Shown: positions 1-9,116 of the stretch, one piece after another
How positions within the stretch are numbered: position 1 is the first letter of the stretch
Layout: each line of letters starts with the position of its first letter
DNA from: Asanoa ishikariensis
GTDB taxonomy: Bacteria > Actinomycetota > Actinomycetes > Mycobacteriales > Micromonosporaceae
Assembly (NCBI RefSeq): GCF_900107455.1
Contig: NZ_FNQB01000005.1
Location: 186,001 to 250,000, forward strand
Direction of reading: 5' to 3'
DNA length: 64,000 nt
Translations under genes and position numbers: made by a program
The notes under the pieces: model-generated
Database searches by the model: none
What the model was told of the DNA's origin: nothing
The model's input: the letters and a program-made list of their open reading frames with translations, nothing else

Positions 1-233
1 GCGTCGCGTCGTCGATCCTGATCGAGGCGTCGCTGTCGTTCCTCGGTGTCGGCGTGCCGGTGCCCACCCCGTCCTGGGGCCAGATGATCGAGCAGGGCAA
101 GGAGTATTTCCAGATCGCGCCGTGGCTGCTGTTCGCTCCCGGCGTCTGCCTGATCGTCACCGTGCTCGCCTTCAACCTCGCCGGTGACTGGCTGCGCGAC
201 CTCCTCGACCCGACCGCACCGGAGCGCCGCTGA
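1..233 (+). CDS. Peptide-type ABC importer permease, DppC family (3' part only)
   Basis: Only the last 76 codons lie in the window (frame begins at base 3). This is the C-terminal part of a DppC/OppC-type inner-membrane permease that forms half of the channel of a peptide or nickel importer. Visible parts are the cytoplasmic coupling loop (IEASLSFLGVGVP), the last membrane helix (WLLFAPGVCLIVTVLAF) and the typical tail GDWLRDLLDP. The TGA stop overlaps the ATG of the next gene (ATGA), so the two permeases are probably translationally coupled. The order C then B is the reverse of the usual B-C order. The binding protein and ATPases are not seen downstream and, if present, lie upstream of the window. 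Confidence 0.85.
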   Translation, partial: VASSILIEASLSFLGVGVPVPTPSWGQMIEQGKEYFQIAPWLLFAPGVCLIVTVLAFNLAGDWLRDLLDPTAPERR

Positions 234-1159
234 TGACCCGGTTCCTGCTGCGCCGCATCCCGCAGGCGGTCATCGTCCTGTTCGGAGTGGTGACTCTCGC
301 CTTCGTCCTGACCCACGTGGTGCCCGGCGACCCGGCCCGGCTGATCGCCGGCCCGAACGCCAGCGTCGACACCGTGGCGTCGATCCACCACCAGCTCGGC
401 CTGGACCGCTCGATCGGCTATCAGTACTGGCGCTACCTGGTCGGGCTCTTCCACGGCGACCTGGGCACCAGCTACGCGCTCCAGGACACTCCGGTCGCGT
501 CGGCGATCCTGCGTGCCCTGCCGATCAGCGCCGCGCTGGCCGTCCTCGGCGTGCTCTGGGAGGCGCTGCTGGGCATCCCGGTCGGGATCCTGGCCGCGTA
601 CCGGCCGGGCAAGCTCGCCGACCGGGTCACCACGCTGGCCACCCTGGTCGGCCTGTCCGCTCCGCCGTTCTGGGTCGGCCTCCTGCTGCTCTACGTGCTG
701 GCGTTCAAGTTCAACCTGTTCCCGCTGTCCGGCTACGCGGCGCCGTACATCAACTACCTGATCCTGCCCAGCTTCACCCTCGGCCTCGGCGGAGCGGCCT
801 GGTACGCCCGGCTCACCCGCACCAACATGCTGGAGGCGCTGCGCAGCCCGTACGTGCAGATGGCCCGGGCCAAGGGGATGCCCGAGCGGGTCGTGCTGCT
901 GCGGCACTGCCTGCGCAACGTGCTCAGCCCGCTGCTGACGATGCTCGGCATGGACCTGGGCTACTTCCTCGGCGGCGTCGTGGTCATCGAGTCGGTCTTC
1001 GGCCTGCCCGGCGCGGGCAAGCTCACCTTCGACGCCATCGGCACGCTGGACGTCCCCATGATCACCGGCGCTGTGCTGTTCGCCGCCTTCTTCATCGTCG
1101 TCATGAACCTCCTCGTCGACCTCGCCTACGCGCTGGTCGACCCCCGGGTGCGTCGTTAG
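233..1159 (+). CDS. Peptide-type ABC importer permease, DppB family
   Basis: A 308-residue permease of the DppB/OppB family, a normal length. The first membrane helix is at about residues 9-29, followed by an extracellular stretch with the family's GLDRSIGYQYWRYLVGLFHGDLG region near residues 54-80 (DxPxxxQYxxWxxxxxxGDLG in relatives). Further helices follow, and the EAA coupling loop (MARAKGMPERVVLLRHCLRN) is near residues 210-229. It pairs with the DppC-type permease just upstream to import short peptides or a similar solute. No ATPase gene follows. A 34-base gap with a purine-rich site (GGAAAGGAAA) leads into the oxidoreductase gene, so all are probably one transcript. The substrate cannot be read from sequence. 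Confidence 0.93.
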   Translation: MTRFLLRRIPQAVIVLFGVVTLAFVLTHVVPGDPARLIAGPNASVDTVASIHHQLGLDRSIGYQYWRYLVGLFHGDLGTSYALQDTPVASAILRALPISAALAVLGVLWEALLGIPVGILAAYRPGKLADRVTTLATLVGLSAPPFWVGLLLLYVLAFKFNLFPLSGYAAPYINYLILPSFTLGLGGAAWYARLTRTNMLEALRSPYVQMARAKGMPERVVLLRHCLRNVLSPLLTMLGMDLGYFLGGVVVIESVFGLPGAGKLTFDAIGTLDVPMITGAVLFAAFFIVVMNLLVDLAYALVDPRVRR

Positions 1160-1193
1160 ACCGCCCCGGAAACGCAAACGGAAAGGAAACACC

Positions 1194-2315
1194 ATGAGTG
1201 ACAAGCTGCGCGTGGCTGTGGCCGGTGCCGGCCGCTGGGCCCAGCGGGCCCACATCCCGGGCTGGCAACGCGATCCGCGCGTCGAGGTGGTCGCGCTCGC
1301 CGACACCGACCCGGCCATGCTGGCCGAGGCGGGGGAGCGCTTCGGCGTCAAGCGGCTGGTCACCGACTACCGCGAGCTGCTCGACGACCCGGACATCGAC
1401 GTCGTCGACGTGGCCACCGCCAACCGGGTCCACTACGAGATCTCCGCGGCGGCGCTCGAGGCGGGCAAGCACGTGCTGTGCGAGAAGCCGGTGCACCATG
1501 ACAACCGTGAGACTCGCGCGCTGGCCGAGCTCGCCCGCGGCAAGGGCCTGAAGACCAAGCTGGGCTTCACGTTCCGGTACGCGCCGGCCGTTCAGTACGC
1601 CAAGAGCCTGATCGACGCGGGCTTCGTCGGCACGCCCTACATCTTCAACGGGTACGAGCAGAACAGCCAGTGGATCGACCCGGCCACCCCGATGCGGCAG
1701 GTCGACCCGAACGCCGACCCGGCCGTGCTGACCACCTCGTCCATCGAGGGCTACGGCGCGCCGATCATCGACATCATGCACTGGTGGAGCGGCGGCAACC
1801 TGAGCTCCGTCGTCGGCACCATGCGCAACTTCGTGCCCGAGCGGATGGTCCGCGACACCGGCCTGGTGCAGCGCCTCAACATCGACGACGGCGACATGTG
1901 GATCGGCGAGTTCGACAACGGCGTGCTGGCCTCGATCCAGTCGTCGTACGTGACCGTCGGCAACTTCCCTGGCATCGAGGCGCGCATCTTCGGCTCGGAA
2001 GGCGCCATCATCGTCCGACTGGTCGAGGAGTTCGGCATCTGCCAGACCATCAAGACGGCCACCAAGGGCTCCGTCGAGTTCGTCGAGCGGGAGATCCCGC
2101 AGGAGTTCTTCCCGGCCGGCGGCCACAGCCGCGAGGACTGGGACTTCCTGTTCTACTCCAACCTCTGCGCCGACTTCACCACCGAGATCCTCTCGGGCAG
2201 CGACGTCAACCAGGGCGACTTCGCGCAGGGCGCGCTGGTGCAGGAGACCATCAACGCCTTCGAGAAGTCGTTCCGGGACCGGGCGTGGGTGTCGTTCCCG
2301 CTGGAGTCCGCATGA
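1194..2315 (+). CDS. Gfo/Idh/MocA family NAD(P)-dependent oxidoreductase
   Basis: A 373-residue cytosolic dehydrogenase of the Gfo/Idh/MocA type. The N-terminal Rossmann fold starts with VAVAGAGRWAQRAH (GxGxxxxxH, residues 7-20). The family signature CEKP is at residues 96-99, and a likely catalytic Asp/His pair lies in IIDIMHWW. The C-terminal alpha/beta domain follows. Such enzymes oxidise or reduce hydroxyl groups of sugars, cyclitols or related acids; the substrate here is unknown. The ATG has a good purine-rich site (GGAAAGGAAA) and its stop overlaps the tldD start. Its place between a peptide-type importer and a TldD/TldE pair is unusual, since neither the ABC permeases nor TldDE suggest a sugar substrate. 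Confidence 0.9.
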   Translation: MSDKLRVAVAGAGRWAQRAHIPGWQRDPRVEVVALADTDPAMLAEAGERFGVKRLVTDYRELLDDPDIDVVDVATANRVHYEISAAALEAGKHVLCEKPVHHDNRETRALAELARGKGLKTKLGFTFRYAPAVQYAKSLIDAGFVGTPYIFNGYEQNSQWIDPATPMRQVDPNADPAVLTTSSIEGYGAPIIDIMHWWSGGNLSSVVGTMRNFVPERMVRDTGLVQRLNIDDGDMWIGEFDNGVLASIQSSYVTVGNFPGIEARIFGSEGAIIVRLVEEFGICQTIKTATKGSVEFVEREIPQEFFPAGGHSREDWDFLFYSNLCADFTTEILSGSDVNQGDFAQGALVQETINAFEKSFRDRAWVSFPLESA

Positions 2316-3787
2316 GCTCCCACGATTGGGGCGCGCTCTCCGACGATGCCGCCGCTCGCGCCATCCTCGACTCCGCTCTGGACACTGTGGATGGCCGGGT
2401 CGAGTACGCCGACGCCCGGCTGATCGAGTGCGAGGAGCTGCGGTCGTACGCCCAGCTCGGCGCGGACCCCGACGAGCGGATCGAGCAGAACATCGGCATC
2501 GGCGTACGGGTGCTCGTCGACGGCCAGTGGGGCTTCGCCGCCCGGCCGCTCGCCGCGCACGCCGACGCCGCGACCGCCGCCCGTTCGGCACTCGCCTCGG
2601 CGGTCGCGTTGGCCGGCAGCGGCCGGCGGGTGTCGTTGCCGCCGCGCGAGGCGGTCAGCGGCCGCTACGAGACCGAAGCCGGCCAGGATCCGTTCACCGT
2701 CGACACCGCTACCCGGCACGACCTGCTGGCCGCGTGGCTGGGTGCCGCGAGCGCGCCGGCCGAGGTGGCGGCCGCGCAGGCCGGCGTCAACGCCAAGCGC
2801 CAGCATCGGCATTTCGCCAGCACCGAGGGCTCGCGCCAGCACCAGCATCTGCTGGAGACCGGCGCGATGCTGATGGTGACCGCGGCCGGGCACGGCGACG
2901 TGCAGCGGCGCAGCTACCCCAACTCGTTCCACGGCAACACCGCGGCCGCCGGGTGGGAGTACCTGGCGGGCCTGGCGATGCGCGAGAACGCGGCCCGGGT
3001 CGGCGAGGAGGCGGTCGCACTGCTGACCGCGCCGCTCGCGCCGCGCGGCCACGCCGACGTGGTGATCGGCGCACAGCAGGTGTCGCTGCAGATCCACGAG
3101 TCGGCCGGGCACGCGCTGGAGCTCGACCGGATCCTCGGCGACGAGGCCAACTACGCCGGCACGTCGTTCATCACGGCCGGCGACGTCGGCTCGCTGCGCT
3201 ACGGCTCGGACGCCGTCACCATCGCCTCCGACCCGACCGTGCCCGGCACCCGCGGCAGCTTCGCCTTCGACGACGAGGGCACCCCGGCCCGCCGCGCCGC
3301 ACTGATCGACCGGGGCATCGTCCGCAACACGCTGTCCACGCGGGACTCCGCCGCCCGGTCGGGTCTGGCGCTGACCGGGGCCGCCCGCTCGGACGGCTGG
3401 GCGTACCTGCCCGTGTGCTTCTCGACCCACGTCTACCTGGAGCCCGGCGACGGCGGCAGCCTCGACGAGCTGCTCGACCGGATGGGCGACGGCTACTACA
3501 TCGACGACAACCGGAGCTGGTCGATCGACAACCAGCGCCTCAACTTCCAGTTCGGCACCGAGGTGGCGTACGAGGTTCGCGGTGGCCGGCGCGGCCGGCT
3601 GCTGAAGAACTTCTCCTACGGCGGCGTCACGCCCCAGTTCTGGGGTTCGGTGGAGGCCGTCGCCGGTCCCGAGGAGTTCCGCGCGTTCGGCTACCCGTGC
3701 GGCAAGGGCGAGCCCAAGCAGTGGGGCTTCCTCAGCCACGGCGCCTCCCCGATGTTGGTGCGCGACCTGCGGATCGGAGTGGCCTGA
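2312..3787 (+). CDS. tldD: TldD-type metallopeptidase subunit
   Basis: A 491-residue TldD homologue of usual length. TldD is the catalytic half of the TldD/TldE zinc protease, which cleaves unfolded or modified peptides within a barrel, best known from microcin B17 maturation and CcdA degradation. The zinc motif HESAGH (HExxxH) is at residues 262-267. The third ligand is probably the Cys of YPCGKGEPKQ near the C-terminus, where TldD proteins carry a conserved Cys-Gly-Lys. The start is the ATG overlapping the previous stop (ATGA). The long open frame extending further upstream is antisense noise within the oxidoreductase gene. Its tldE partner follows immediately. No RiPP precursor gene was found nearby, so processing of an imported peptide is the simpler inference. 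Confidence 0.95.
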   Translation: MSSHDWGALSDDAAARAILDSALDTVDGRVEYADARLIECEELRSYAQLGADPDERIEQNIGIGVRVLVDGQWGFAARPLAAHADAATAARSALASAVALAGSGRRVSLPPREAVSGRYETEAGQDPFTVDTATRHDLLAAWLGAASAPAEVAAAQAGVNAKRQHRHFASTEGSRQHQHLLETGAMLMVTAAGHGDVQRRSYPNSFHGNTAAAGWEYLAGLAMRENAARVGEEAVALLTAPLAPRGHADVVIGAQQVSLQIHESAGHALELDRILGDEANYAGTSFITAGDVGSLRYGSDAVTIASDPTVPGTRGSFAFDDEGTPARRAALIDRGIVRNTLSTRDSAARSGLALTGAARSDGWAYLPVCFSTHVYLEPGDGGSLDELLDRMGDGYYIDDNRSWSIDNQRLNFQFGTEVAYEVRGGRRGRLLKNFSYGGVTPQFWGSVEAVAGPEEFRAFGYPCGKGEPKQWGFLSHGASPMLVRDLRIGVA

Positions 3788-5166
3788 TGACCTCGTTCGC
3801 CCCACCCGTGGCACCGGACGGCCTGCTGGCGCAGCTCGCGTCCGCAGCGGCCGCACCGAATGCCGACGCGGTCGAGATCACCCTGCTCGGCCGGGCCGGC
3901 GAGTACACGCGGTTCGCCGGCGGCCGCGTGCACCAGCCGCAGGACATCCTCGAGACGCAGTTCTCCGTGCGGGCCGTCGTCGACGGGCACGCCGCCCGGG
4001 CGGCGACGGGCACACTGTCGGGTTTGGACCAGGCCGTCGCGCGGGCCACGGCTGCGGCCCGCGCGTTGGCGGACCGGGCGCGAGGGAAAGCCGGTTCGGC
4101 TACTGTCGCGATGCCGGCCGTCGCGCCCGAGGTGGTGCTCTGGCACGACGACACCGCGGCCTTCGACGGTGGCGCCCGCGCGACCGCCGCCGGCCGGACG
4201 ATGCGGGCCGCGGCGGACGCCGGTGGCGGCGCCGCCGGCATGTTCGGCCGCGCGCTGACCCAGATCGCCGTGGTGAACTCGGCCGGCGTGGCCCACCACG
4301 CGCTGGCCACCGAGGCCCTCGGCACGCTGACCGCGACCGTGGCCGACGGCACCTCGCACTGGATCGACCTGCACCGGTCGGCCGGAGCCCTCGACCTGGC
4401 CGCCAGCGTCGACCGGACGATCGCCGAGGCGGTCGCCGGCCAGGGCCGCCGGCCTGTGCCCGACGGCCGGCACACCGTCGTGCTCGGCCCGCAGGCGGCC
4501 GGCGAGCTGCTCACCTTCCTCGAGGACGCCGGCTTCTCCGGCGAGCTCGCGGCCGCGCACGTCGGGCTGGTCGCCCAGCGAGCAGGCCAAAAGGTGGCCA
4601 GCTCGTTGGTGACCGTCGCCGACGACGCCACCGCCACGATCGGCCTGCCCATCGGGTTCGACATGGAAGGCACGCCGAAGCGCCGGGTGCCGCTGCTGAC
4701 CGCCGGCGTCGTCGGCGAGGCCGTCACCAACCTGGCCACGGCCGCCGCGCTCGGGACCCGGTCGACCGGGCACGCGCACATCGCCCGCGAGGAGGTGCCG
4801 ACGCCCGTCGCCGCCAACATGGTGATGGACGCCGGCGACGCCACCGAGGCGGAGCTGATCGCGGGCGTCGAACGCGGCATCTACGTGCAGCGGTTCTGGT
4901 ACACCCGGCTGGTCGACCGGGTCACCGCGACCATCACCGGGGTCAGCCGCGACGGCTGCTTCCTGATCGAGGACGGCCGGCTGACCGCGCCGGTCGCCGG
5001 TGCCCGGTTCACCCACTCGGTCCTCGACTTCCTCGGCACCGTCGACGGGGTCGGATCGGCCCGCCGGTCGCAGCCGGTGATGAACGTCTGGAACGGCGCC
5101 GTCACCGCGCCCGCCTTGCGCGGGCACGGGTTCCGGTTCGGCGCCGCGACCGTGGAGGAGTCCTGA
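3787..5166 (+). CDS. tldE: TldE/PmbA-type metallopeptidase partner subunit
   Basis: A 459-residue PmbA/TldE homologue that forms the heteromeric partner of TldD. In the known complex TldE lacks the zinc site and closes the chamber; here too no HExxxH motif is present. Visible family features are the N-terminal region EYTRFAGGRVHQPQDILE (YxRFxxxxIHQ-like) and the C-terminal TATITGVSRDGCFLIEDGRL ending in the RFTHSVLDFLGTV stretch typical of PmbA. The start ATG shares one base with the tldD stop, which fits stoichiometric production. The next gene starts on this gene's stop codon (TGATG). Confidence 0.93.
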   Translation: MTSFAPPVAPDGLLAQLASAAAAPNADAVEITLLGRAGEYTRFAGGRVHQPQDILETQFSVRAVVDGHAARAATGTLSGLDQAVARATAAARALADRARGKAGSATVAMPAVAPEVVLWHDDTAAFDGGARATAAGRTMRAAADAGGGAAGMFGRALTQIAVVNSAGVAHHALATEALGTLTATVADGTSHWIDLHRSAGALDLAASVDRTIAEAVAGQGRRPVPDGRHTVVLGPQAAGELLTFLEDAGFSGELAAAHVGLVAQRAGQKVASSLVTVADDATATIGLPIGFDMEGTPKRRVPLLTAGVVGEAVTNLATAAALGTRSTGHAHIAREEVPTPVAANMVMDAGDATEAELIAGVERGIYVQRFWYTRLVDRVTATITGVSRDGCFLIEDGRLTAPVAGARFTHSVLDFLGTVDGVGSARRSQPVMNVWNGAVTAPALRGHGFRFGAATVEES

Positions 5167-6020
5167 TGGCTGTCCGCAGCAATGCCGACCGGCTGGTCAC
5201 CCAGATCCTGACCGGCGAGGTGTGGCCGGCCCTGGCGGATCGGCACGGCTACCGGGTCGACGCCGACGGGACGCCGTTCCTGCTGCCCGGCATGGGCGGG
5301 GTGACCCTGGGCGTGCACCCCGGTGACCCGGCCACCGGCTACGCCGCCGACCACCTGGAGCCGGGCCTGTCGGTCCGGCACCGGGACGGCGACGCCAACA
5401 TGGCCCTGCAGTTCCTGTCCTGCGTCGGCAACACCGTGACGGTGCGCACCGGCCCGGCCGCGGGCGCGCAGGGCAAGGTCATCGGACAGCACGCGTACGT
5501 CCTGGTCGACCTGGCCGAGGAGGAGCTGGCCCAGGTCAGCACCGGCGACCAGGTGACCGTGGCGGCCCGTGGCCAGGGCCTGCGACTGCTGGACCACCCG
5601 GACGTGGTGGCCAAGAACCTCGACCCGGGGCTGCTCGACCGGCTGCCGGTGCGGACCCGCGCCGACGGGCGGTTGGAGATCGGCGTCGCGGCCAGGGTCC
5701 CAGCCATCGCGGTCGGAGCGGGCGCGGGCATGGTGTCCGAGTTCGCGAACACCGATCTGATGGGCGCGTACGCCGGCCAGGGTGACGATCTGTCGCTGGG
5801 CCTGGAATCGCTGCGCATCGGCGACCTGGTGGTGCTCGAGGACAGCGACCACCGTTTCGGCCGGGGTTTCCGCCCCGGCTATCTGACGATTGGCGTGATC
5901 AGCACCGGCCACTGCCGGCTGTTCGGCCACGGACCCGGGCCGAGCACCATCCTGTCCGGCCCGGCCGACGCGTTCCACGTCGTCGACGACCCCGACGCGT
6001 GCCTGGGAGGCCTGCTGTGA
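5166..6020 (+). CDS. DUF4438 domain protein, first paralogue
   Basis: A 284-residue protein I assign to DUF4438 from overall pattern, a family of unknown function. Visible landmarks are GMGGVTLGVHPGD near residues 40-52, CVGN with a GxAxGAxG segment near 92-110, the stretch GDQVTVAARGQGLRL near 127-141 and a C-terminal block RPGYLTIGVISTG...GHGPG near 237-261. All of these recur in the next gene, so the two are tandem paralogues. No signal peptide or membrane helix is seen, so it should be cytosolic. Its start overlaps the tldE stop. Position in the operon suggests that it acts on, or with, the product of TldDE processing. Confidence 0.75.
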   Translation: MAVRSNADRLVTQILTGEVWPALADRHGYRVDADGTPFLLPGMGGVTLGVHPGDPATGYAADHLEPGLSVRHRDGDANMALQFLSCVGNTVTVRTGPAAGAQGKVIGQHAYVLVDLAEEELAQVSTGDQVTVAARGQGLRLLDHPDVVAKNLDPGLLDRLPVRTRADGRLEIGVAARVPAIAVGAGAGMVSEFANTDLMGAYAGQGDDLSLGLESLRIGDLVVLEDSDHRFGRGFRPGYLTIGVISTGHCRLFGHGPGPSTILSGPADAFHVVDDPDACLGGLL

Positions 6021-6841
6021 CTGTCGCGGTGAACCTGACCGGGGTGGTGGAGACACCCACCATGCCCGGCTCGCCCTACCTCGTCGACGCCGACGGCCAC
6101 CCGTACGTGCCGGTCGGCGACGGCGGCGTGGTGCTCGGCGTACACGTGGGCGACGGGGTCTTCGACGTCGACGGCGACCACGTCGCGCCCGGCGTCACCC
6201 TCGCCCACCCGGACCAGGCGGCCCGGCACGCGCTGACCGCGTTCGCCTGCTTCGGCAACCGGGCGCTGGTCCGCTCCGGCGGCGCGGCCGGCGCCGAGGG
6301 CTTCGTGCTCGGCAAGCGCGGCGAGGCCGGCCGGGTCATCGTGGTCTTCCACGACGACGTGCTGGCTCGATTGGCACCCGGCGACAGTGTCGTGGTCCGG
6401 GGCGACGGCCAGGGTGCGTCGCTGCCCGGGGTGTCGGTGCTCAACGTCGACCCGGCGGCCCTGCACCTGCTGCCGTTGACTGTCGGCGACGGCAACGTGT
6501 CGGCGACGGTCCGGGCGGTGTTCCCGTCCTCGTACGCCGGGAACGGGATCGGTCGTCCCGCGCAGATGTGGGACATCGACCTCCAGGTGACCCCGGCGTT
6601 GGCGCCAGGACTGCGGCTCGGCGACCTGGTCGCGGTCGACGACCTGGACGTGCGGCACAACGCCGGCTACCGGCGCGGCTACCGCACGATCGGCCTGATC
6701 GTCCACGGCGCCAGCCCGTTGCCCGGGCATGGACCCGGCCTGATGCCGATCCTGTGCGCTCCCGCGGAGAACTTGCCGGTCACCATCACGACCGATGCCT
6801 TGCCCATGCTCCGCCCCGACGACCTAAACTGCCGCCCATGA
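6017..6841 (+). CDS. DUF4438 domain protein, second paralogue
   Basis: A 274-residue paralogue of the preceding gene. It begins at a GTG overlapping the previous stop (GTGA); the frame stays open upstream but this coupled start is best. Shared landmarks are DGGVVLGVHVGD, CFGNRALV followed by GAAGAEG, GDSVVVRGDGQGASLPG, NVDPAALHLLPL, and the C-terminal RRGYRTIGLIVHG...GHGPGLMPIL. The shared C-terminal block points to the same fold, so the pair may form a heteromer. The 3' end carries the probable -10 element of the GntR gene, and its stop overlaps that gene's ATG. Function is unknown. Confidence 0.72.
   Translation: MTVAVNLTGVVETPTMPGSPYLVDADGHPYVPVGDGGVVLGVHVGDGVFDVDGDHVAPGVTLAHPDQAARHALTAFACFGNRALVRSGGAAGAEGFVLGKRGEAGRVIVVFHDDVLARLAPGDSVVVRGDGQGASLPGVSVLNVDPAALHLLPLTVGDGNVSATVRAVFPSSYAGNGIGRPAQMWDIDLQVTPALAPGLRLGDLVAVDDLDVRHNAGYRRGYRTIGLIVHGASPLPGHGPGLMPILCAPAENLPVTITTDALPMLRPDDLNCRP
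6825..6837 (+). promoter_or_regulatory. Probable leaderless -10 element for the GntR gene
   Basis: TAAACT at 6825-6830 lies seven bases before the ATG at 6838, and no Shine-Dalgarno precedes that ATG. The spacing fits leaderless transcription, so the regulator could be made on its own besides reading through from the operon. Confidence 0.45.
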
Positions 6842-7500
6842 CCGATCCGACAGCTGTCCTGCACAGGTCCCTGCCGGAGAGCGTCTATCTGCTGTTGCGC
6901 CGGCGCATTCTGAACAACGAGTTCCAGGCCGGGCAACGGCTCATCGAGGCCTCCATCGCAGAGGAGCTCGGCGTCAGCCGGTCCACGGTCCGTGAGGCGC
7001 TGCGCCAGCTCTCCGTCGAGGGGCTCGTCGACATCTCGCCGCGCCGGCACAGCGTGGTCACCCGGATGGCGTACGAGGACATCCGCGACGCCTGCTACGC
7101 CCGGTTCGTGCTGGAGGCCGGCGCCGCCCGCAGCATCAGCGAGCGCACCGGCCTGATCGTGGCGATGAAGAAGGTCGTCGCCGGCATGGCCGAGGCGGCG
7201 GAGTCCGGCGATGTGGCGCGCATGATCGACCTGGACACCGAGTTCCACGGCTGCATCATCGACGCCTCCGGCCGGCACCGCCTCGGTTCGCTGTGGCGGA
7301 TGCTGGACGCCCAGATGGGCGCGCTGATGCGGTCGTCGATCGACCGGCAGCACATCGCGCTGGACGAGGCGGTCCGGCGGCACCAGCTCATCGTCGACGT
7401 GTTCGGCGCGGGCACCATGGACGAGATCGTCGCGGCCATGGAGGAGCACTACCTGGGCACGGTCGACGGCATGGCGGAGGCGGGCGTACTCAGCCAGTAA
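6838..7500 (+). CDS. GntR family regulator, FadR/FCD subfamily
   Basis: A 220-residue transcription factor. The N-terminal winged helix-turn-helix (residues about 10-75) includes the canonical ASIAEELGVSRSTVREALRQLSVEGLV. The C-terminal all-helical FCD ligand domain has the expected metal-type residues D-x(3)-H in DLDTEFHGCI and later His residues (VRRHQLI, EEHYLG). FCD domains usually sense carboxylic acids. As the last gene of the peptide-import/TldDE/DUF4438 operon it is the obvious candidate regulator of that operon. Its operator cannot be identified because the operon promoter is outside the window. Confidence 0.92.
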   Translation: MTDPTAVLHRSLPESVYLLLRRRILNNEFQAGQRLIEASIAEELGVSRSTVREALRQLSVEGLVDISPRRHSVVTRMAYEDIRDACYARFVLEAGAARSISERTGLIVAMKKVVAGMAEAAESGDVARMIDLDTEFHGCIIDASGRHRLGSLWRMLDAQMGALMRSSIDRQHIALDEAVRRHQLIVDVFGAGTMDEIVAAMEEHYLGTVDGMAEAGVLSQ

Positions 7501-7589
7501 CAACCGTTTTGGCTCGGTGGGGCAGCAGGGTCGCTGACAGTGATCTATCGTCTGCGGTCTTGATCTTTGACCCCCTCCCGAGGACATCC

Positions 7590-9116
7590 ATGTCGATAAA
7601 GACTGCCCGCCGGCTGCTCGCCGGCGTAGCGGCCGCCGGCGCTTTCGTCGCGGCGACCGCGTTTCCCGCCTACGCCGCGCCCAGCCTCAAGATGGACACG
7701 CTTGACGCGCTCGTGGCCGCGAACGGCTACACACGCGGATTCGTCGCGGTGTACGGCGGCGGGGACGAGCTGGTTGGCAAGATCTCCATCCTGATCGACT
7801 CGTCGGATCTCGAGGGCGCCACCGTCGAGCTCGACTGGACGTCCAGCGACTGGCTGTGCGACACCACCACCGGCACGCAGATCCGGTGCGAGCAGGACGC
7901 TCCCGAGGGCTCCTTCGGCACCAGCATCAGCTACGCGATCCTCGGCAAGTCGGACGCGGAGATCGGCACCAAGAGCAGCATCACCCTCACGGCGGACGTC
8001 GACGGCACCAAGGCGACCGCGAAGTCGGTCGTCACGATCGCCGAGGCGAGCGACCTGCGGGTCCAGCAGGAGCCGCTGGCGGTCAAGGGTGACCCGGGTG
8101 GCGTGGCCAAGTCGAACGCCCCGGTCTCCAACGTCGGCGAGTCCACTGTGGCCCGCACGACCATGATCCTGTCGCCCGACTGGCACACGCCCTACGCCGG
8201 CGACTTCTCGAACTGCGTCAACTACATGGACGCGTTCACCATCTGTGAGTTCGACCAGCCGCTCAAGCCGGGCAAGAGCTACCGGCTTTCCGAGGACATC
8301 CCGTACTCCGTCTCGAAGACCGCTCGCACCGGCGCGGTGTTCCCGACGTACGCCGACTGGTACGTCGAGGACGACTGGAAGGTCCTCGAGCCGGCGTGGG
8401 GCCTGGGCGACTACGAGCCGACGCGCGGCACGGGTGAGCCCCTGCGCCTCGAAGAGGTGGCCAACACCGCTCGTGGTCCGCAGACCGACATCAACCCGTA
8501 CGACAGCTTCCTGCAGATCGACATCACGGTCGGCGGCAACAACCAGGTCGACATGGCGGCGGTCGGCGCCACCGCCACCGGCGCGGCCGGCGCGACCGTC
8601 ACGGTGACGCCGACCCTGAAGAACCTCGGCCCGGCCGACCTCGAGACGAACTTCGAGGAGCCCAAGACGCCGGCCCTGCGGATCACCATTCCGGAGGGTA
8701 CGACGGTGACCGACGCGACGTGGGACTGTGCTCCCTACTCCGCGGGTGGCACCTGGCCGCCGGACGAGGACGCGTGGGGCAAGGCGGGCGCGCGCGAATA
8801 CGGTTGCATGGTCTGGGACGTGTTCGCCGGAGACTCGTACGGGTACGACTTCCGACTCAAGATCGACCGGGTGGTGAGCGACGCGACCGGCACCATCACT
8901 GCCAAGATCGATGGCGACCCGAACGCCGCCAACGACGTGGCCCAGATCGTGATCAACGGAACCGGCGCCGGTGGCGGCGGTGGCGACGATGACGGCGGGC
9001 TGCCCGTTACCGGCCCGCAGGCGACGCTGATCGCCAGCGCCGGCGTGCTGCTGGTCGGCGCCGGCGTGGCCGGCTTCATCGTGGCCCGGCGTCGCCGGAC
9101 CCGCTTCGTCGCCTGA
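7590..9116 (+). CDS. LPVTG cell-wall-anchored surface protein
   Basis: A 508-residue secreted protein. The start ATG follows CGAGGACATCC. A signal peptide (LLAGVAAAGAFVAATAFPAYA, residues 9-29) precedes a long all-beta extracellular region with two or more repeated Ig-like or DUF11-like segments (DLRVQQEPLAVKGDPGG and QVDMAAVGATATGAAGATV, each followed by a thread of the form NxGxxxxxxT). A glycine-aspartate linker leads to LPVTG, a hydrophobic helix (ATLIASAGVLLVGAGVAGFIV) and an Arg-rich tail, the classic sortase-sorting signal. No sortase gene is near. Ligand or role unknown; a structural or adhesive surface function is only an inference. It appears monocistronic and is followed by a strong hairpin. 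Confidence 0.85.
   Translation: MSIKTARRLLAGVAAAGAFVAATAFPAYAAPSLKMDTLDALVAANGYTRGFVAVYGGGDELVGKISILIDSSDLEGATVELDWTSSDWLCDTTTGTQIRCEQDAPEGSFGTSISYAILGKSDAEIGTKSSITLTADVDGTKATAKSVVTIAEASDLRVQQEPLAVKGDPGGVAKSNAPVSNVGESTVARTTMILSPDWHTPYAGDFSNCVNYMDAFTICEFDQPLKPGKSYRLSEDIPYSVSKTARTGAVFPTYADWYVEDDWKVLEPAWGLGDYEPTRGTGEPLRLEEVANTARGPQTDINPYDSFLQIDITVGGNNQVDMAAVGATATGAAGATVTVTPTLKNLGPADLETNFEEPKTPALRITIPEGTTVTDATWDCAPYSAGGTWPPDEDAWGKAGAREYGCMVWDVFAGDSYGYDFRLKIDRVVSDATGTITAKIDGDPNAANDVAQIVINGTGAGGGGGDDDGGLPVTGPQATLIASAGVLLVGAGVAGFIVARRRRTRFVA

Follow-up and report, generated by a model that had tools for sequence, protein, structure and literature searches.

We have analyzed a stretch of 64,000 nucleotides from the 9.09-Mb genome of the soil-type actinobacterium Asanoa ishikariensis (contig NZ_FNQB01000005.1, designated C6, bases 186001-250000; hereafter the window), whose first 7,500 bases carry the 3' part of an operon-like unit combining a peptide-type importer, a TldD/TldE pair, two DUF4438 proteins and a GntR-family regulator. 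Positions before the window are those of a longer stretch of the same locus (L003), from which the window position is obtained by subtracting 12000. The preliminary description of this DNA had reported eight genes running in the same direction and mostly overlapping, and all eight are open on the + strand at the positions it gave; an overlap of 1 or 4 bases is seen at six of the seven junctions, and the genes for DppB and the Gfo/Idh oxidoreductase are separated by 34 bases. The unit starts much earlier, at L003:3822 (about window -8178, approximately 8.2 kb before the window), and comprises 15 genes on one strand with overlaps at 10 of its 14 junctions, the largest gap being the 88 bases between the binding-protein gene and dppD. 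We describe it as a probable operon for the uptake and breakdown of peptides, distinguished by its DUF4438 pair.

The seven whole genes located 5' of dppC, all on the + strand like the others, encode a D-2-hydroxyacid dehydrogenase, which is the first gene of the unit (L003:3822-4853), a DapA-like enzyme (L003:4855-5763), a short-chain dehydrogenase/reductase (SDR; L003:5760-6533), an aminotransferase of class I/II (L003:6530-7693), a binding protein assigned to SBP_bac_5 by Pfam (L003:7708-9309), and the two ATPases DppD (L003:9398-10366) and DppF (L003:10363-11334). The gene for the DppC-type permease (L003:11331-12233) starts at window -669 and has its 3' end in window 1..233; this permease and both ATPases were assigned from their sequences and homologues. 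It is followed by a DppB-type permease of 308 amino acids (233..1159), assigned from its sequence and having homologues that adjoin DppC in other loci. Then come a Gfo/Idh/MocA oxidoreductase of 373 amino acids (1194..2315), a TldD-type metalloprotease subunit of 491 amino acids (2312..3787), its TldE-type partner of 459 amino acids (3787..5166), the first DUF4438 protein of 284 amino acids (DUF4438a; 5166..6020), the second one of 274 amino acids as read from the GTG at 6017 (DUF4438b; 6017..6841), and the GntR-family regulator of 220 amino acids with an FCD domain (6838..7500). A simple scan of window 7480-7720 found no promoter or terminator 3' of the regulator gene. The next gene in the 3' direction (window 7590-9116) encodes a secreted-looking protein without a Pfam match, whose end resembles that of sortase-anchored proteins in combining LPVTG with a hydrophobic stretch and basic residues.

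Related loci were collected by a scan of named genomes, which gave 149 relatives; the best 80 of these were kept, consisting of 14 actinobacterial ones and 66 others. With the loci of three further genomes and that of A. ishikariensis, the actinobacterial set considered below is 18 distinct loci (L003, L015, L016, L017 and L020-L033, with L018 and L019 dropped as repeats of L023 and L027), among which L020, L022, L024, L025, L030, L026, L033 and L031 were extended with further flanking DNA (L145-L152). Within the same order, PF14505 exceeds its cut-off in six of 150 genomes belonging to four families, with two copies each, and among 396 genomes drawn evenly across the phylum it does so in that of A. 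ishikariensis alone. The full 15-gene order is common to five loci, those of A. ishikariensis, Hamadaea tsunoensis, Dactylosporangium vinaceum, Paractinoplanes pyxinae and Streptosporangium carneum. The tandem of DUF4438a and DUF4438b and the GntR gene are present in all 18 loci, and the Gfo/Idh gene is found in 17 (L029 is clipped by a contig edge). At least one gene of Dpp type is likewise present in 17, and the gene for the hydroxyacid dehydrogenase in 15. TldE is encoded in 15 and TldD in 14, the TldD gene of L029 being expected to fall off the contig; TldE lies immediately 5' of DUF4438a in 14 of the 15, and in L031, from Trebonia kvetii, TldDE lies 3' of the GntR gene instead. The tldD gene of this last species is in two pieces with different frames (L031 13170-14637), reflecting either a sequencing error or decay.

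Because the same neighbours recur in other actinobacteria, a chance assembly is excluded, and the earlier view that the peptide-type importer, the regulator of its own, TldDE and the DUF4438 pair form one linked unit has been borne out; there is good support for an uptake unit with linked and co-regulated genes. The preliminary description had further tied its shared-pathway idea to a co-occurrence of DUF4438 and tldDE in other genomes. This co-occurrence holds in actinobacteria, with TldE in 15 of the 18 loci, and does not extend beyond them: the 66 non-actinobacterial DUF4438 loci, examined with flanks from less than 1 kb to 10 kb per side, gave no match to TldD, TldE, Gfo or GntR. A general partnership of DUF4438 and TldDE was thus rejected, and since TldDE is also missing from three of the 18 actinobacterial loci, the link is a property of the paired form found in actinobacteria. 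The shared-pathway idea is therefore supported in part: the linkage stands, but four more enzymes are encoded upstream, and DUF4438a and DUF4438b differ from each other.

Both tld products contain the PmbA_TldD domain of Pfam. The TldD-type protein has HESAGH at residues 262-267 and a C-terminal Cys463, and HExxxH together with a C-terminal Cys is found in 14 of 14 operon TldD proteins (in the split L031 gene, the motif is in the longer piece), whereas HExxxH is found in none of the 14 operon TldE proteins encoded alongside them. In Escherichia coli, according to a part of the work describing this pair (PMC5810440), HExxxH and the C-terminal Cys of TldD are the metal ligands, TldE is devoid of them, and the pair cuts unfolded peptides. 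Judged by its sequence, the TldD of the unit is a kind of its own: it scores far under the NCBIfam TldD cut-offs (107.5 versus 635 bits and 80.6 versus 513 bits), and TldD at 73-100% identity was found in only four of the 150 same-order genomes, all of them among the six with DUF4438, the next best match being at 48%. The hypergeometric chance of this co-occurrence is 7e-7, a value serving only as a guide because the genomes are related. In the group of TldD proteins at 40-48% identity (25 genomes), five of eight loci fetched are beside Dpp-type genes, including one on contig C4 of A. ishikariensis itself. This second TldDE pair of the genome (C4:345001-364000, designated L142, 8450-15319; TldD 41-42% identical to the operon TldD) adjoins genes for a Dpp-type permease and a binding protein. 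Pairs of about 40% identity are also carried by plasmids of Burkholderia stagnalis and Pseudomonas aeruginosa, with genes for binding protein, ATP-binding cassette transporter and TonB receptor (two inspected among 30 matches listed).

The two DUF4438 proteins are assigned to their family (PF14505/PF20999) with Pfam E-values of 2e-44 for DUF4438a and 1.1e-32 for DUF4438b; the N domain scores 151 and 113 bits, respectively, against a cut-off of 24.9, and the C domain 106.9 and 72.3 against 27. We aligned 66 single copies, taken as the best hit per locus with the second copy of L035 excluded, with 18 DUF4438a and 18 DUF4438b sequences. DUF4438a keeps the invariant residues of the family: Glu65 and His109 are present in every one of the 66 single copies and the 18 DUF4438a sequences, whereas in all 18 DUF4438b Glu65 is replaced by Ala or Ser and His109 by Arg, accompanied by a change of Thr47 to Val (18/18) and of Gly232 to Asn (17/18). 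DUF4438b is not a collapsed gene, since other conserved positions are retained, namely His63 in 16, Asn89 in 18 and the His of GHGPG in 17 of the 18. DUF4438a is therefore probably the catalytic copy and DUF4438b probably a non-catalytic, degenerate partner, and at the level of residues this contrast would resemble that of TldD, which has the protease motif, and TldE, which does not. In a FastTree tree, to be used only as a guide because of long branches, DUF4438a and DUF4438b form clades with supports of 0.998 and 1.0 and are joined with 0.967, and a DUF4438 tandem of a Sphaerobacter metagenome-assembled genome (L035) falls elsewhere. Read by eye, the second copy of the latter has Asn, Ser and Tyr in place of His63, His109 and His255 and keeps Glu65, so that the parallel with DUF4438b is partial. 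The L035 tandem (1656-3448) adjoins genes for an SDR, a VOC-family protein, two aminotransferases, an Ldh_2-type dehydrogenase, a hydroxyacid dehydrogenase and an allantoinase-like amidohydrolase.

The AlphaFold model of DUF4438a (mean pLDDT 90.3, pTM 0.90; per-residue and global model confidence) was compared with the PDB using Foldseek at E <= 0.001, and the only match was TM1086 of Thermotoga maritima (3dcl and 3n99; TM score 0.90-0.92, E about 1e-31). The relatives of the binding protein (see below) raised the question whether DUF4438 might be related to acetamidase/formamidase (FmdA_AmdA); we discarded this candidate on the basis of an hhalign probability of 0.1%, obtained with two FmdA sequences in the profile, and of the Foldseek result. 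The neighbours of the single DUF4438 genes were likewise dismissed as a functional clue, as the largest clusters are antisense or generic open reading frames and cover at most 11 of the 66 loci. No DUF4438 gene was found on plasmids.

The regulator is a clear member of its family (GntR helix-turn-helix domain 62.9 bits against 27; FCD domain 66.8 against 24.3), and FCD domains are known to use a metal in binding carboxylates. A palindromic site matching or resembling GATTGTCGACAATC is located at L003:3783-3796, about 25 bases 5' of the likely ATG of the first gene, and with at most two mismatches in 14 positions it precedes the first gene of a unit in 12 of the 18 loci, while other bases upstream of the units are poorly conserved. 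Outside the operon genes, against which alone they were tested, are 17 of 18 palindrome sites, the eighteenth being inside DUF4438a of L021; other sequence, amounting to 197,578 bases, has two sites with at most two mismatches and none with at most one. A slightly longer pattern drawn from the sites has one exact fit in the A. ishikariensis genome, and one further place, on another contig, fits with one mismatch. Such near-palindromes of this genome were set aside, the one-mismatch site, on contig C3, because it is inside a long open reading frame and two more places because they are not beside genes of the unit type. From the conserved palindrome at the unit heads we infer a single GntR-controlled regulon, in which the terminal gntR gene would control the whole unit through this putative operator.

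The preliminary description had seen permeases of peptide type and pointed to the bases upstream for the rest of the transporter; the SBP_bac_5 binding protein (315.8 bits) and two Dpp-type ATPases are indeed there, making a complete Dpp/Opp-type importer with two permeases which, by sequence, is not a sugar or metal importer. The Gfo/Idh protein has the Rossmann domain (Pfam GFO_IDH_MocA, 93.7 bits) and the EKP motif, and Lys98 and Glu97 are invariant in 17 sequences; a pattern scan for viral copies of its gene found none. A DapA function was rejected for the DapA-like gene, as it scores 67.2 bits against the NCBIfam dapA cut-off of 206.15 and is a family member, not DapA; its nearest solved structure is 3dz1, followed by L-2-keto-3-deoxyarabonate dehydratase.

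Gene order, protein families, conservation, the palindrome at the unit heads, the TldD motif and the residue losses of DUF4438b are the observations on which an interpretation can be built. We consider it rather probable that the unit is a single 15-gene uptake-and-breakdown regulon under the GntR/FCD protein for a peptide-like conjugate, in which an amide bond would join a short peptide or amino acid to a polyhydroxy or keto-acid part. The conjugate would be imported by the binding protein and DppBCDF, and its amide cut by TldDE, with TldD as the catalytic subunit and TldE as the shell partner. The Gfo/Idh enzyme may oxidize or reduce the non-amino-acid part, on which DUF4438a, held by DUF4438b in a mixed oligomer, could catalyze a reaction of hydrolase or lyase type. 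Amino-acid and 2-oxo-acid fragments released in this way would be fed into central metabolism by the aminotransferase, DapA-like enzyme, SDR and 2-hydroxyacid dehydrogenase through aldolase- or dehydratase-type, transamination and reductive steps, and a carboxylate product may release the GntR repressor. A more specific form of this proposal, which we offer only tentatively, is an undescribed peptide-sugar or peptide-keto-acid pathway in which DUF4438a and DUF4438b constitute a new type of heteromeric enzyme, whose active subunit is accompanied by a dead copy serving in assembly or in binding the substrate, and which evolved beside the active/inactive TldD/TldE pair, with a separate parallel duplication in the Sphaerobacter genome.

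Several points weigh against the proposal of a peptide-conjugate regulon. SBP_bac_5 proteins also carry non-peptides. TldDE is missing from L023, L027 and L028, all metagenome-assembled, and a whole-genome TldD search found a TldD of 34% identity in the L023 genome and none in the other two; TldDE is thus not essential to the core. The DapA-like enzyme, SDR and aminotransferase are jointly present in only six of the 18 loci, and variant units carry a second Gfo/Idh (nine of 22 loci scanned) and a luciferase-like oxidoreductase (six of 22), with repeats included in these counts, two of them among the nine. The palindrome is absent from 20 kb of L015 even at three mismatches and, at up to two mismatches, from about 165 bases before the binding-protein gene of L023; in the four other loci without it (L016, L021, L027 and L029), the unit heads are outside the sequence examined. 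DUF4438 elsewhere stands alone without a common neighbour and gives no independent clue to the chemistry. On the other side, the importer genes of the variant units are just 27-46% like those of A. ishikariensis and still of Dpp type, and this repeated recruitment of the same importer kind argues for a peptide-like substrate.

The importer could also serve the scavenging of plain amino-acid amides or dipeptides for nitrogen, with TldDE or DUF4438 acting as the amidase and the other enzymes oxidizing the amino acid. The best PDB match of the binding protein by far is 8upi (337 bits, the next 179), which we take to be a Mesorhizobium protein binding L-amino-acid amides, although literature searches found no paper for it, and rhizobial relatives of the binding protein at 37% identity adjoin an acetamidase/formamidase gene in both of two loci inspected. 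We nevertheless regard this explanation as unlikely, because FmdA_AmdA is absent from the 15 gene products of the unit as judged by families and descent, DUF4438 shows no relation to that family by hhalign and Foldseek, and the conserved Gfo/Idh (17/18) and hydroxyacid dehydrogenase are hard to account for with a plain amide.

Since a Gfo/Idh enzyme suits a sugar part, we also weighed whether the unit protects against, or turns over, an antibiotic or signal with an amide linkage, e.g., an aminoacyl sugar. PmbA_TldD pairs (LmbIH and LmbQ) do occur in the lincomycin and celesticetin clusters, but knock-outs there suggest a supporting or regulatory role rather than hydrolysis of the product, as far as a portion of that report tells (PMC4351081), and no resistance gene was recognized among the 15 genes; such a function appears improbable. 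That the unit makes a modified peptide natural product and uses the importer to take it up again is very improbable in our judgment: TldDE matures microcin B17 (stated in part of PMC5810440) and several enzymes of the unit are of tailoring type, but no precursor peptide, nonribosomal peptide synthetase, polyketide synthase or exporter was recognized in the unit, small open reading frames not having been searched systematically, and a binding protein and importer under a GntR/FCD regulator have the layout of an uptake system. That the genes are chance neighbours of no common pathway is hardly conceivable; DUF4438 and TldDE are each found alone elsewhere, but the order recurs in many loci, the genes overlap and the palindrome is common to them, and the conserved order refutes this explanation.

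All protein families of the unit are known, and their combination was not found described in open-access literature. The DUF4438 family has solved structures, and searches of the same literature for DUF4438, PF14505 and TM1086 found no function described; the unit provides its first clear context, and because DUF4438 is linked here to an importer and a protease, and to a regulator whose operator can be predicted, uncomplicated assays of growth, binding and reporter expression could suffice to find the substrate. TldDE, usually regarded as a general protease, appears in several lineages as a component dedicated to importers of peptide type. The second, degenerate copy of DUF4438 would make a clear example of an inactive partner retained in an enzyme pair.

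Comparison with known systems places the unit among several partly similar ones. Rhizobial operons for amino-acid-amide uptake, with a binding protein of the 8upi type, share the importer type and differ in having the amidase FmdA_AmdA. Plasmid-borne relatives of the Gfo/Idh gene at 41-45% identity (eight among the 20 matches listed, seven inspected; Deinococcus, Ensifer and Lichenicola) are beside a Dpp-type importer and a DUF885 protein in all seven and a ketopantoate-reductase-like protein in six; the five Deinococcus units also have M24-type and other aminopeptidases, one confirmed as M29. Thus in other phyla this dehydrogenase clade accompanies peptide import and peptidases; TldDE and DUF4438 were not seen there, DUF885 (in Deinococcus also M24 and M29) taking the place of TldDE. 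The Deinococcus operons share an SDR (39.5% identical in the one compared), but have an RraA-type aldolase in place of the DapA-like enzyme; those of Ensifer and Lichenicola share a GhrA-type dehydrogenase. With importer, Gfo/Idh, DUF885, RraA-like protein, SDR and aminopeptidase, and with IclR and M24-type genes divergent, the Deinococcus operons (L106, L108, L116, L172 and L173) look like a sister pathway. The DapA-like/SDR pair is a travelling module. Of four regions inspected, alphaproteobacterial or related, three have it together with amidohydrolases: in these hydantoinase operons the DapA-like gene (39-41%) is followed by the SDR gene (42-51%), but amidohydrolases and, in three of the four, Asp/Glu racemases accompany them instead of TldDE and DUF4438. 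A simple Ser-Tyr-xxx-Lys pattern was not found in the SDRs of three such pairs (L109, L110 and L111). The E. coli TldD/TldE pair shares the Pfam domains and the distribution of the motif and C-terminal Cys between its subunits, whereas the present pair is linked to an importer, Gfo/Idh and the DUF4438 pair and scores far below the TldD cut-offs. Finally, TM1086 has the same fold as DUF4438a and shares its invariant residues; unlike this family in general, which has one copy in 65 of the 66 non-actinobacterial loci and two in L035, the unit of A. ishikariensis carries a tandem with a degenerate second copy.

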